Below are positions 3,689-59,126 of a stretch of 64,000 nt of DNA, one piece after another. Below the pieces are notes generated by a model, which saw nothing but the letters and a program-made list of their open reading frames with translations, was not told the origin of the DNA and did no database searches. Source of the stretch: Halomicrobium urmianum (lineage in GTDB: Archaea > Halobacteriota > Halobacteria > Halobacteriales > Haloarculaceae); NCBI RefSeq assembly GCF_020217425.1, contig NZ_CP084090.1, positions 2,666,001 through 2,730,000 on the forward strand, written 5' to 3'. Positions within the stretch are counted from its first letter, which is position 1; each line of letters begins with the position of its first letter. The position numbers and the translations under genes are program-made.

Positions 3689-4975
3689 ATGCGCCTCGAC
3701 GAGTTCGTGGAGGGGTTCGAGCGGGACGAGGCCGCCGAGCGGCGGCGCCTGGCCGAGGAGAAGTCCTACGAGATCACGAACTACCTGGACGACGTCGAGC
3801 GGCAGTTTCAGGAGACCGTCCAGGGCGACTCCCTGTTCGGATCCACCGCGCCGGAGATCTTCGTCGGCCGGTCTGGCTACCCCGACGTCTCGACGGGCGT
3901 CCTCTCGCCGATGGCCGAGGACGCCGACGCCGAGGCCTACGCCACCAGCGGCGACTGGTACCACCAGGGGCTGGGCGTCGGCGACGTCCTCCAGCGCCGG
4001 ACGGGCCTGCTCAACTCCACCCGCTCCGCGAAGGTCGACGTCAACGACGTCTGGGACGGCTTCGTCGGCACCCAGCGCGAGGTCGCCATCGCCGACCACC
4101 CCGTCGACGTCGAGGTCGGCCTGGACGACGCCCCCGAGATCGACCTGACGCTGGACGACATCGGGACGCCGACCGGGCCGCGTGCCCGTGCCACCGAAGC
4201 GGACCTCGCCGAGAACCCCCACGTCCCCCGCTCCGTCGAGAAGACGCTGGAGGACGACGACTGGCGCGCGGAGGGCGCGATGACCTACCTCTACCGCCGC
4301 GGGTTCGACGTCTACGAGGTCAACACCATCCTCTCGGCGGGCGCGCTCGGGCAGAACCGCGAGCGCAAGCTCGTCCCGACGCGCTGGTCGATCACCGCCG
4401 TCGACGACACCGTCGGCCAGTACCTCCGCGGCGGCCTCCTGAACCGCAACACCATCGACCAGACCGAGGTCTGGTACAACGAGTACATGGGCAACCGGTA
4501 CTGGGTCATCCTCTCGCCCGGCCAGTGGGAGTTCGAGCTGGTCGAGATGAAAGCGCCCGAGAGCGTCTGGAACCCCGAGGGCAGCGACTACTACCTCGCC
4601 AGCGCCAGCGAGGGCTACGAGGGCCGCACCGGCTACGTCGAGGAGACTGCCGGCGCCTACTACGCCTCGCGGCTGGGCGTCCTCGAGCACCTCCGCGAGC
4701 GTGACCGGCAGGCCAAGTGCCTCGTGCTGCGGGAGGTCACCGACGAGTACTGGGCCCCCGTCGGCGTCTGGCAGGTCCGCGAGGGCGTCCGCAACGCCTT
4801 CGACGACGACGTGCGCACGGACACGCCGACCGTCCCGGACGGCCAGCCAGCCGTGGCGGAGACGTTCCGGGACGCCGTCAACGGCGTCGTCGGGCAGCTA
4901 CCCGTCCCGATGAACCTGCTCCGCCGGAAGTCCGACATGGTCGCCGGGATCCAGTCTCAGATCACGGACTTCTGA
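3689..4975 (+). CDS. nreA: DNA repair protein NreA
   Basis: A 428-residue archaeal NreA. This family works with PCNA in repair of DNA damage such as that from mitomycin C. Recognisable blocks are the N-terminal region with GSTAPEIFVGRSGYP, a central core including LSAGALGQNRERKLVPTRWS and EVWYNEYMGNRYWV, and the C-terminus, where QSQITDF forms the PCNA-interacting (PIP-like) motif. No zinc finger is seen at the N-terminus, consistent with the haloarchaeal NreA type. It is a single-gene unit between a membrane protein and a small TatA-like gene. The complete length and the intact C-terminal motif suggest it is functional. Confidence 0.92.
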   Translation: MRLDEFVEGFERDEAAERRRLAEEKSYEITNYLDDVERQFQETVQGDSLFGSTAPEIFVGRSGYPDVSTGVLSPMAEDADAEAYATSGDWYHQGLGVGDVLQRRTGLLNSTRSAKVDVNDVWDGFVGTQREVAIADHPVDVEVGLDDAPEIDLTLDDIGTPTGPRARATEADLAENPHVPRSVEKTLEDDDWRAEGAMTYLYRRGFDVYEVNTILSAGALGQNRERKLVPTRWSITAVDDTVGQYLRGGLLNRNTIDQTEVWYNEYMGNRYWVILSPGQWEFELVEMKAPESVWNPEGSDYYLASASEGYEGRTGYVEETAGAYYASRLGVLEHLRERDRQAKCLVLREVTDEYWAPVGVWQVREGVRNAFDDDVRTDTPTVPDGQPAVAETFRDAVNGVVGQLPVPMNLLRRKSDMVAGIQSQITDF

Positions 4976-5709: not shown

Positions 5710-5757
5710 GGCTGACGGTAGCACCCTGCGGAACAAAAGGTACCCGAGTGGGCCTGT

Positions 5758-5834
5758 AGTAGAAATCGAACGCGATCACACACTCGAAGGCACGTGGGGT
5801 GCCCTTCGATGCGTGAAGAGTTTCAATTTCTACT
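5758..5834. repeat. Palindromic element, AGTAGAAATTGAA family, copy A
   Basis: A 77-bp element with arms AGTAGAAATCGAA (5758-5770) and TTCAATTTCTACT (5822-5834), and an inner imperfect stem between CACACTCGAAGG and CCTTCGATGCGTG. It aligns base for base with copies at 41335-41418 and (inverted) 26649-26726. Its right arm supplies the stop codon (TAG read on the minus strand) of the DUF5789-like gene ending at 5833. The sequence similarity and nested hairpin are seen directly; mobility is inferred. Confidence 0.85.
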
Positions 5835-6126
5835 AGCTCTCGGTCGGGACCGGACCGTCGCCGATGACGTCGCGGACGGCGCCCGTGAACTCCTGGCGCG
5901 ACTGGAAGTAGGTCAGGTCGACGTCCGCGAGGACGTCCGCCAGTTCGCGGGGGCCGTCGGGGGTGCGGATCTCGACGTCGCCCTCGCGGTCGACGACGGT
6001 GTTCTTCTCGATGCCCCAGGTGAGCCGCGAGGCCACGCGGGCGACGGGGGCGCCCGCGACGGGGTCGCCCTCGCCGAGTTCGACGGCGGGTTCCTCCTCT
6101 TCCTCGCTGTCCTCGTCGTCGCTCAT
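5833..6126 (-). CDS. DUF5789-like haloarchaeal protein
   Basis: A 97-residue acidic protein starting MSDDEDSEEEEEP, followed by a compact domain: VELGEGDPVAGAPVARVASR, LTWGIEKNTVV, then IRTPDGPRELADVL and TYFQSRQEFTGAVRDVIG. This pattern matches haloarchaeal DUF5789 proteins as I know them; their function is unknown. No membrane segment or catalytic motif is present. The ATG at 6126 is chosen because upstream codons encode an arginine-rich stretch unlike the family. The last codon and stop lie inside palindromic element copy A, so the C-terminus may have been re-set by insertion of that element. Confidence 0.7.
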   Translation of the reverse strand: MSDDEDSEEEEEPAVELGEGDPVAGAPVARVASRLTWGIEKNTVVDREGDVEIRTPDGPRELADVLADVDLTYFQSRQEFTGAVRDVIGDGPVPTES

Positions 6127-25922: not shown

Positions 25923-26663
25923 ATGTCACGCGACCTGACCCTCGTCCGCCTCGACCTGCACTGGGTGCCGGCCGAGCGGATCGCCCGTGCCGTCCCGGGC
26001 GTCTCGCCCGACGACCTGCCGGCGGAGCTTCGCCGATCCGGACCGACCGACGCTGCGACGAGTCCCTTCCCGACGGAGACGTGGACCGGCGGGCCCGAGG
26101 GGCGGTCGCGCCGGCGTCCCGGCGAACGCGCGGCGCGGCTGGGCGAGCCGACCGGGTCCGATCCGACGACCGAGCGTCGCCCGGGAACGGCGGCTGCCAC
26201 TCGAAACCGGCAGGACAGCACGCCCGACGAGCGACGGGGAAGCACGTCCGACGACCGGCGCCACCGCCGGCACAGTGGCGAGACGCCGCCGCCGGGCGTC
26301 CCCAGTCCCAGGGACGAGTCGGACTCGGGCGGGAAGAGCAAACTGCTGGTTCTGGGCGGCGCCGCCGTGGCGGTTCTGGGCGTGCTCGCGGCCGCGGCCG
26401 GCTTCCTCTGGAAGAAGAAGAGCGGCGGCGACAGTGACGGCGGCGACGGCGCGGACGCGTCCGGGTCAGGTATCACGGAGAAGATTCCCGTCGTCGGCGG
26501 GGACGGCGAGGGCGATGACGACCAGCGCGAGGAGCGGGAGCCGCGGACCGAGCGGGGGCACACGAGCGCCGCCCCCATCGTCGGGATGACCGCGCTGGCG
26601 GTGATGGCGGCGTTCGTCCGGCGCTTCCTGGTGTGGCCCCGGGGTCGCTATCGTAGAAACTAG
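25923..26663 (+). CDS. Hypothetical haloarchaeal protein with central TM helix and disordered segments
   Basis: A 246-residue protein. The N-terminal 40 residues (LTLVRLDLHWVPAERIARAV) look folded. A long Arg/Asp/Ser/Gly/Pro-rich stretch (~45-135) is likely disordered. A TM helix lies at ~139-160 and ends in WKKK. A Gly/Asp-rich segment follows, then a final hydrophobic segment (~220-237, APIVGMTALAVMAAFV) with an Arg-rich end. GCTTTTATTGG ~28 bp upstream is a credible promoter. The last two residues and stop come from an inserted palindromic element (copy C), so the original C-terminus may have been different. Confidence 0.6.
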   Translation: MSRDLTLVRLDLHWVPAERIARAVPGVSPDDLPAELRRSGPTDAATSPFPTETWTGGPEGRSRRRPGERAARLGEPTGSDPTTERRPGTAAATRNRQDSTPDERRGSTSDDRRHRRHSGETPPPGVPSPRDESDSGGKSKLLVLGGAAVAVLGVLAAAAGFLWKKKSGGDSDGGDGADASGSGITEKIPVVGGDGEGDDDQREEREPRTERGHTSAAPIVGMTALAVMAAFVRRFLVWPRGRYRRN

Positions 26664-26726
26664 TTACACATCGAAGGGCATCTCGGGTGCTCCTCGAGTG
26701 TGTCAGTGCGTTCAGTTCCTCCGATA
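26649..26726. repeat. Palindromic element, AGTAGAAATTGAA family, copy C (inverted, degenerate)
   Basis: In reverse complement this reads AACTGAACGCACTGACACAC, then the same centre as copy B, then GTGTAACTAGTTTCTACGATA. It matches the 41335-41418 copy closely, but has lost about six bases in one arm (CAATTT) and picked up changes in the other. It provides the last codons and TAG stop of the gene ending at 26663. Confidence 0.8.
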
Positions 26727-41334: not shown

Positions 41335-41418
41335 TATAGTAGAAATTGAACGCACTGACACACTCGAGGGGCACCCGCGATGCCCTTCGATGTGTAAATA
41401 GTTTCAATTTCTACTATA
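41335..41418. repeat. Palindromic element, AGTAGAAATTGAA family, copy B (best preserved)
   Basis: An 84-bp element with perfect 16-bp inverted ends TATAGTAGAAATTGAA (41335-41350) and TTCAATTTCTACTATA (41403-41418). Inside, ACACACTCGAGGGGCAC pairs imperfectly with ATGCCCTTCGATGTGT, so the whole element folds as one nested hairpin. It begins 15 bp after the S9 peptidase stop codon. Related copies are at 5758-5834 and 26649-26726. Confidence 0.9.
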
Positions 41419-54442: not shown

Positions 54443-54526
54443 ATACTGGCCGTCGTAGCCGTGTTTCGGTCCGGCCGCCTGTAGCTGGGCGGCCGAACCC
54501 GAGGCTAGCTACGACAGTCCGTATCA
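54443..54526. repeat. Nested palindrome, TGATACGGACTGTCGTAGC family
   Basis: ATACTGGCCGTCGTAGC (54443-54459) pairs with GCTACGACAGTCCGTAT (54508-54524). An inner pair, CGGTCCGGCCGCC with GGCGGCCGAACCCG, forms a second stem. On the minus strand it begins with the TGA stop of the gene at 54524, like the related copy at 58976-59058. Confidence 0.8.
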
Positions 54527-58000: not shown

Positions 58001-58978
58001 ATGGACTACGTCCGACTCGGGACGACTGGTCTGGAGGTATCGCCCATCTGCCTCGGAACCTGGCGCTTCGGCGAGGTTTCCAGTGGCGTGATGGAGACCG
58101 ACCGCGAGGAGGCCCACGAACTGCTGGACGCCTTCGCCGAGCGCGGCGGGAACTTCATCGACACGGCCAACGGCTACGGCGAGGGCCGCAGCGAGCAGTG
58201 GATCGGCGAGTGGCTCGAGGACCGCGACCGGGAGGACTTCGTGATCGCCTCGAAGTGCTACTGGTCGGACGTCTCCCGCTTCCAGGAGAACCTCTCGCGG
58301 AAGAACGTCCGCGCCGAGGTCGAGGGATCGCTGGAGAAGCTCGACACAGACTACCTGGACGTTCTGTACCTGCATCGCTTCGACGACGAGACGCCGATCG
58401 AGCGGACCCTCCGCACGGTCGACGACCTCGTCAGCGAGGGGAAGGTCCACCACGTCGGCATCTCGACGTGCGACGCCTGGAAGCTCACCAAGGGCCTCTG
58501 GCAGGCCGACGTGAACAACTACGAGGCCTTCACCGTCACTCAGCCCCAGTACTCCGCGGTCCACCGCGAGCCCGTCGACGAGTACCTCGATGTCTGCGCC
58601 GACCAGGACCTCGCGGTCTGCCCGTACTCGCCGCTGCACGGCGGTCTGCTGACCGGCAAGTACGAGCGCACCGCCGAGGGCGACGTCGAGGCGCCGGACG
58701 GCTCCCGGGGCGACCTCGAGGAGCACTTCGAGGACTGGTACCTCTCGGAAGATGCCTGGGACGTCGTCGAGGAGATCGAGGCCGTCGCGGAGGAGGCCGA
58801 CGCCACGCCCGCGCAGGTCGCCCTGCGCTGGCTGATGGACGAGGAACAGTTCACCTGCGTGCCCATCGTCGGCGCCCGGACGGTCGACCAGCTCGACGAG
58901 AACCTCGGCGCCGTCGACGTCGACCTCTCCGAGGACCAGCGCGCGCGGATCGACGAGGCGGGCGCGAGCGGGGACTGA
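58001..58978 (+). CDS. Aldo/keto reductase
   Basis: A 325-residue NADPH-dependent TIM-barrel oxidoreductase. The catalytic tetrad is visible: Asp54 and Tyr59 in NFIDTANGYGEG, Lys85 in VIASKCYW, and the His in LYLHRFDDE. The C-terminal cofactor loop has CVPIVGARTVDQLDENLGA. The substrate is unknown; close relatives reduce sugar or aromatic aldehydes or act as beta-subunit-like proteins. The ATG at 58001 is favoured over an upstream in-frame codon since MDYVRLGTTGLEVSPICLGT is the conserved start. It lies 45 bp after dsbB. Its TGA is the start of a nested palindrome. Confidence 0.9.
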   Translation: MDYVRLGTTGLEVSPICLGTWRFGEVSSGVMETDREEAHELLDAFAERGGNFIDTANGYGEGRSEQWIGEWLEDRDREDFVIASKCYWSDVSRFQENLSRKNVRAEVEGSLEKLDTDYLDVLYLHRFDDETPIERTLRTVDDLVSEGKVHHVGISTCDAWKLTKGLWQADVNNYEAFTVTQPQYSAVHREPVDEYLDVCADQDLAVCPYSPLHGGLLTGKYERTAEGDVEAPDGSRGDLEEHFEDWYLSEDAWDVVEEIEAVAEEADATPAQVALRWLMDEEQFTCVPIVGARTVDQLDENLGAVDVDLSEDQRARIDEAGASGD

Positions 58979-59058
58979 TACGGACTGTCGTAGCTGTTTG
59001 CCGGTACGACTGTCCATCGTCGGGCAGTCGTACCGGTACTGACCTGCAACAGTCCGTA
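58976..59058. repeat. Nested palindrome, TGATACGGACTGTCGTAGC family
   Basis: TACGGACTGT (58979-58988) pairs with ACAGTCCGTA (59049-59058), and inside CCGGTACGACTG (59001-59012) pairs perfectly with CAGTCGTACCGG (59025-59036). The first triplet is the TGA of the aldo/keto reductase. The outer sequence is the same as in the copy at 54443-54526, but the inner stem is different. Confidence 0.85.
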
Positions 59059-59126
59059 CGAGGCGGTCAGCCCGGCCGGCGGCCTGCGTGTTTACACGTC
59101 CCGGGGGAGAGCGCCGTCGGCCTCGC

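Follow-up and report, generated by a model that had tools for sequence, protein, structure and literature searches.

An IS630-family MITE has been described in Methanosarcina mazei, with ISMma9 as its partner. Like the repeat reported here, it is archaeal and short (89 bp), has 16-bp inverted repeats and owes its partner assignment to its ends, but the excerpts of PMC3852290 list five copies and no target duplication, and the likeness is drawn from description. In Haloquadratum walsbyi, the Short Mobile Repeats (SMRs) SMR-A and SMR-B (80–110 bp) likewise have inverted ends and many copies, are transposase-free and enter mobile repeats; the excerpts of PMC3119063 report them without target duplication or a related transposon, whereas our element has a TA duplication and an insertion sequence (IS) relative. 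PATEs, with IS605-type terminal palindromes, are also palindromic and haloarchaeal but, in the same excerpts of PMC3119063, have no terminal inverted repeats, a feature that sets our element apart from them. The IS630 group of ISNpe3 and ISNma7 has TATAGTA-type ends, C-TA...TA-G flanks and partial similarity to our element over 29 bp; in contrast to it, these ISs are ~1.05 kb long and carry a transposase gene, and a shared interior was not seen. A further parallel is offered by the Correia elements of Neisseria, which duplicate TA. They are short, high-copy prokaryotic MITEs like our element but bacterial, and are likened to it by description, not sequence, from the excerpts of PMC10969869. 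The element itself is not described in the consulted parts of PMC3119063, PMC3852290, PMC10969869, PMC2170065, PMC6471742, PMC3402447 or PMC3403918, nor in literature listings; ISfinder lay outside this search.

In the window, the 64,000-nucleotide stretch of Halomicrobium urmianum DNA that we analysed, an initial annotation had reported three copies of a nested palindrome. We recovered all three, with slightly larger extents: copy A at 5755–5837 (+), copy B at 41335–41418 (+) and copy C at 26643–26726 (−). Copy B, a high-scoring member of the family, is 84 bp long including a flanking TA on each side, with an 80-bp core at 41337–41416. Its left terminal inverted repeat, TATAGTAGAAATTGAA (41335–41350, +), begins with a TA that is the duplicated target, as empty sites of other copies show, and its right terminal inverted repeat, TTCAATTTCTACTATA (41403–41418, +), ends with the other TA of the duplication. 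Between them lies an inner nested stem (41358–41395, +), in which element columns 24–41 pair with 45–61 in the consensus fold, leaving one bulged base. The perfect 16-bp inverted ends and the inner stem first noted for this copy were thus both confirmed. Copy A is 83 bp long and has lost its right TA (CTACTAGC), and copy C is degenerate, with the right (3') end of the element altered. The three copies do align, but the claim that they do so nearly base for base was overstated: their pairwise identities are 81%, 78% and 68%, and the 3' end of the copy at 26643 is damaged.

The repeat unit is 84 bp, comprising an 80-bp core TAGTAGAAATTGAA...TTCAATTTCTACTA and one TA per side, and the family consensus is TATAGTAGAAATTGAACGCACTGACACACTCGAGGGGCACCCGGGGTGCCCCTCGATGTGTAAATAGTTTCAATTTCTACTATA. 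We scanned the genome, 4.25 Mb in six contigs; all copy counts given for H. urmianum are lower bounds, one search having scored 40 out of 120 candidates and the larger one described below a smaller share. The 14-base end TAGTAGAAATTGAA had 199 matches at two or fewer mismatches, versus two for a reversed control pattern. A covariance model, with which 150 matches were scored out of 1,641 first-look candidates, placed the element at no fewer than 113 distinct genomic places, in line with the expectation that three copies in the window meant many in the genome. These 113 places fall on contigs C1 (83), C2 (9) and C3 (21), or 24.7, 21.5 and 52.6 copies per Mb, respectively, the density on C3 being about twice that on the main contig, C1. 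Using nhmmer on the fetched loci, we obtained 115 non-redundant places, with one further place at a locus edge skipped. Length was exactly 84 bp in 88 of the 115 copies, and these 88 differ from the consensus at 0 to 45 positions, about half of them at six or fewer, indicating that the family mixes old insertions with recent ones. At the bottom of the score range, the places are doubtful or only half copies. The element is short and non-coding, with 16-bp terminal inverted repeats and many copies dispersed over C1, C2 and C3, as is typical of MITEs. The initial view that it is not a simple REP also held: REP/REPIN palindromes are 20–40 bp, whereas it keeps to a length of 84 bp.

The consensus folds into a 16-bp outer stem and a bulged inner stem, with an asymmetric internal loop between them. 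Copy B has a folding energy of about −42 kcal/mol (z of about −8), equalled by none of 200 shuffled sequences, and for the window copies folding is much stronger than for shuffled sequence on both strands. Three of the 115 copies (L056, L057 and L125) are 61–63 bp long and have the inner stem deleted between two TCGA repeats. The right end also bears what we take to be a resemblance to a CRISPR/Cas12a repeat, an identity that we dropped.

To survey the family's distribution, we searched other genomes with patterns derived from it. Among 146 genomes from the GTDB family, the stringent pattern of the repeat family itself matched three (H. urmianum and two species of another genus) and none of six congeners; three congeners carry a sister family of the same architecture. 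A right-end pattern shared by the two families was present in 102 of the 392 genomes sampled from the order, the control giving no match among the rows listed, and it marked 87 stretches in genome contigs of Halomicrobium, Haloarcula, Natrinema, Halovenus, Natronoglomus, several MAGs and one Bacillus. Of the places extracted from other hosts, 72 of 81 were exactly 84 bp. The sister family was present at 193 places on 54 plasmid records, the named ones among those listed being haloarchaeal, and gave no match in phage records or viral contigs; the family itself gave none in plasmid records, phage records or viral contigs. A Natrialbaceae MAG holds variants of 118–121 bp (L225, L251 and L260) that keep both ends around a longer and wholly different inner palindrome. 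Bacillus sp. cl95 has a single 75-bp element (L237, 4151–4225) that has a 26-base stretch at its start in common with the H. urmianum family and an imperfect inverted copy at its other end; the strict pattern was absent from 192 other genomes of the Bacillus family concerned.

In the excerpts of PMC6471742, the tetranucleotide CTAG is underrepresented in every haloarchaeal genome analysed, and an orphan CTAG methylase is widespread in haloarchaea. The window contains 21 CTAG against 66 expected from trinucleotides, a roughly threefold deficit; the density outside predicted genes is about twice that inside. The use of this tetranucleotide by the element can be read at one clean orthologous empty site (n = 1), for a sister-family copy in a genus other than that of the window. 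The filled locus in Haloarcula amylolytica reads ...TATCGACTA[80 bp]TAGCGGACG..., and the orthologous empty site in Haloarcula genome G013, with a left flank 97% identical to that of H. amylolytica, reads ...TCTCGACTAGCGGACG...; aligned, TCGA-C-TA[core]TA-G-CGGACG stands against TCGA-CTAG-CGGACG. The element thus enters CTAG and TA is duplicated, an 82-bp insert without duplication being formally equivalent to an 80-bp core with TA duplication. Of 12 further Haloarcula loci listed, 11 also lacked the element at the matching intergenic place, and the twelfth (L348) matched elsewhere. At congener sites aligned to the window copies, the element was not seen and the insertion point was too diverged for base-level reading. 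Occupancy of orthologous positions in distant species, which would speak against mobility, was thus not what we observed: other species were without the element at the sites examined.

A second repeat of ~82 bp serves as a paralogous site within the genome, reading GTCG-TA-GCTG when empty and GTTG-TA[80 bp]TA-GCTG when filled in L016, L017 and L024 (with GCTC in place of GCTG in L017); in L010 the element sits in this repeat in the opposite orientation. The comparison of filled and empty sites that had been proposed at the outset therefore defines a TA duplication, from one clean Haloarcula site and paralogous sites in the genome. Among 64 high-scoring copies, C precedes in 49, G follows in 51 and both are present in 36, and across all 115 copies the C and/or G flank at the TA is missing in 53. 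Longer target duplications were sought at lengths of 2, 3, 4, 5, 6, 8 and 9 bp and six offsets, and none above 2 bp was accepted. The top excess (z 3.6, for 5 bp at a single offset) was rejected because no copy had a 5-of-5 match; lesser excesses (z 2.0 and 2.9) occurred at a length of 9 bp. The 80-bp core thus inserts at TA, with a preference for that of CTAG, and TA flanks it on both sides afterwards. Insertion at TA or CTAG with TA duplication is the behaviour of IS630 (Tc1/mariner), and the flank counts and the empty site both show this type of target use. A preference of IS630 for the TA of CTAG is stated in the title of Tenzen and Ohtsubo 1991, as cited in PMC2170065.

Other repeats were found joined to the element. 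The second repeat is a hairpin family with ends ATACGGACTGTYG; its two window copies, at 58978–59059 (+) and 54443–54524 (−), are both empty, and four copies elsewhere in the genome hold the element, in one orientation or the other, at one shared internal TA. Sister-family copies in Halomicrobium katesii are interrupted by small insertions (L239, 6067–6479; L242, 1611–1778; L282, 4041–4208), two of which resemble the second hairpin repeat. At four loci (L035 at ~1490, L112 at ~1165, L114 at ~1101 and L097 at ~1168) an end of the element is joined to a right end GAGGCACTCG..CTGCTCC, which we take to be IS605/PATE-like. In L035, L114 and L097, a CTAT is found upstream, close to where the left end of this repeat is presumed to lie, which suggests that IS605/PATE-like elements have inserted into the end of the element.

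To ask where a transposase might come from, we searched the H. urmianum genome with DDE_3 (PF13358) and obtained no match, that is, no detectable IS630 transposase. The same Pfam model scores the candidate transposase of the ISNpe3/ISNma7 group at 132 bits, so this absence is not a failure of the model. DDE_3 was likewise not found in three further genomes that hold the repeat or its sister family (G062, G085 and G087). With no IS630 transposase detectable, the family looks orphaned in the H. urmianum genome. It departs here from the usual picture of a MITE with an autonomous partner in the same genome; the missing partner does not exclude MITE membership, since partnerless MITE-like repeats are known (excerpts of PMC3852290). 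Two candidates were discarded. The IS630 element of H. katesii (G059) has different ends (TGATACGGTCG), and a split copy (L092), considered as an autonomous parent in the genome, is interrupted by what we judge to be an IS5-type element. This split copy spans 3907–4934 of its locus, and the interrupting IS has a 277-aa ORF; its apparent target duplication of 8 bp reads AACTAGTT.

We compared the element with 16 haloarchaeal IS630 loci fetched from plasmid records, six of which were without recognisable matching ends on one or both sides. TATAGTA-type ends were present in ten of the 16, among them annotated ISNpe3 and ISNma7, and C precedes 16 of the 19 ends of this type that were recognised. 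The ends of the element resemble those of the ISNpe3/ISNma7 group over ~29 bp, a short likeness: past the first eight bases, the best match is 15 of 21 positions, reached by the right end of a Haloterrigena turkmenica IS against the right end of the H. urmianum family and by the right ends of Natronorubrum aibiense and Haloarcula marismortui ISs against the left end of the sister family. By column permutation, the H. urmianum family matched IS630 ends on the right (p 0.0007), while its left end was not significant alone by the maximum (p 0.076); the sister family matched on the left (0 of 3,000 permutations) and on the right (p 0.011). The TATAGTA-type ends, the preceding C and the end similarity together point to ISNpe3/ISNma7-like IS630 elements as the probable transposase source, now missing from the H. 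urmianum assembly. The search for a transposase gene with matching terminal repeats thus had a divided outcome: such a group exists elsewhere, and none is detectable in this genome.

To examine the hairpin, we aligned 17 host consensuses, chosen by hand from the extracted places and resting on one copy each for several hosts. Nine pairs of the inner stem (columns 30–38/48–56) are retained in at least 16 of the 17, and seven of these nine show two to four Watson–Crick types across hosts. Pair 39/47 is kept in 14 of 17 and, at the apex, positions 40/46 and 41/45 are open in most consensuses; pairs 20–23/65–68 are present in the H. urmianum family and unpaired in the sister family. Indiscriminate copying from arm to arm is unlikely to have caused the compensation, because a C–T mismatch at columns 10/75 is retained in 12 of the 17 consensuses. 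Within the genome (85 copies), 422 pair cells carry one-sided changes versus 63 with double changes, of which 45 are Watson–Crick; 34 doubles are expected by independence. Inserted copies are therefore not kept paired and their arms mostly decay independently. Within-genome covariation was rejected as proof of structural selection, as one-sided changes dominate, and one variant (columns 9/76; p 0.005) resembles a subfamily. Since pairing is kept between hosts and lost within the genome, selection for pairing, if real, works during the multiplication of copies and not after insertion. A folded form was likely selected in multiplying copies, to judge from inner-stem pairing that is kept while the sequence turns over and from a length held at 84 bp.

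These observations bear on the other ways in which the family could be read. The initial annotation had also allowed for a mobile structured RNA or a terminator, which the host would keep for its hairpin at transcript ends. Strong folding on both strands, inner-stem pairing conserved across hosts and the location of most copies outside predicted genes would suit such a role, but gene orientation is near random, without an excess of convergent sites: a simple in-house ORF caller, run on the joined flanks, sorted 112 of the 115 copies into convergent (18), divergent (18), tandem (30), inside a predicted ORF (34, many near the ORF end) and unresolved (12). The loss of pairing in inserted copies, the lack of any Rfam match in the window and the absence of the element from aligned congener sites also count against an RNA or terminator, which we consider very unlikely. 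A transposase-free SMR of the H. walsbyi type, with inverted ends, no target duplication, no related transposon and a tendency to aim at mobile elements, is highly improbable. The size (80 bp for the SMR-B HqIRS41), inverted ends and high copy number are alike according to the excerpts of PMC3119063, and our element does insert into another repeat; the TA duplication and the relation of its ends to those of an IS630 group are nevertheless defining differences, and only four copies were found in the second repeat.

IS870 belongs to the IS5 family. If the MITE were instead moved by a CTAG-using transposase of another kind, such as that of an IS870-like element, this would fit a genome without IS630 and with at least one IS judged IS5-type, and the use of CTAG by IS870, given in the reference list of PMC6471742, may show that CTAG targeting extends beyond IS630. 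Hand comparison showed, however, that all 74 exact 14-base ends listed belong to copies of the repeat, one IS-split copy or one half copy; no IS with perfect element ends was found in the genome, and the IS5-type element present has other ends and an 8-bp duplication. We regard such a mover as unlikely. As a whole, the evidence is best explained by a CTAG-targeting haloarchaeal MITE family for which an ISNpe3/ISNma7-group IS630 element supplies the transposase in trans, and we consider this highly probable. The element is MITE-like and non-autonomous, as originally proposed, with support from its fixed length, inverted ends, copy number, TA duplication and matching IS ends; it represents a new, widespread family of IS630-type MITEs whose nested hairpin is unusually conserved.

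Following this logic, a DDE transposase from an IS of the ISNpe3/ISNma7 group (~1.05 kb, TATAGTA-type ends, C-TA...TA-G flanks) would act in trans, binding the ends common to IS and element, excising the 80-bp core and pasting it into CTAG. Copies in H. urmianum, where the enzyme is no longer detectable, are probably stranded and decaying. An 80-bp element lies below the stiffness length of DNA, and the ends of a linear duplex of this size meet with difficulty. Cruciform extrusion, or single-strand folding during replication, would place the ends side by side for an IS630-type transposase. That the nested hairpin is itself part of the transposition substrate is a doubtful but conceivable reading, one that would explain the near-invariant 84 bp, the compensated inner stem, the unpaired asymmetric loop and the rarity of stem-less copies of 61–63 bp.

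The family is a small mobile repeat with a wide haloarchaeal spread, and it uses a tetranucleotide that, in the excerpts of PMC6471742, haloarchaea avoid and methylate. It provides a defined candidate partner IS for testing, and a clean comparative setting in which to ask if the folding of DNA is important to transposons of very small size. In H. urmianum, it is a MITE family that has apparently outlasted its own transposase.
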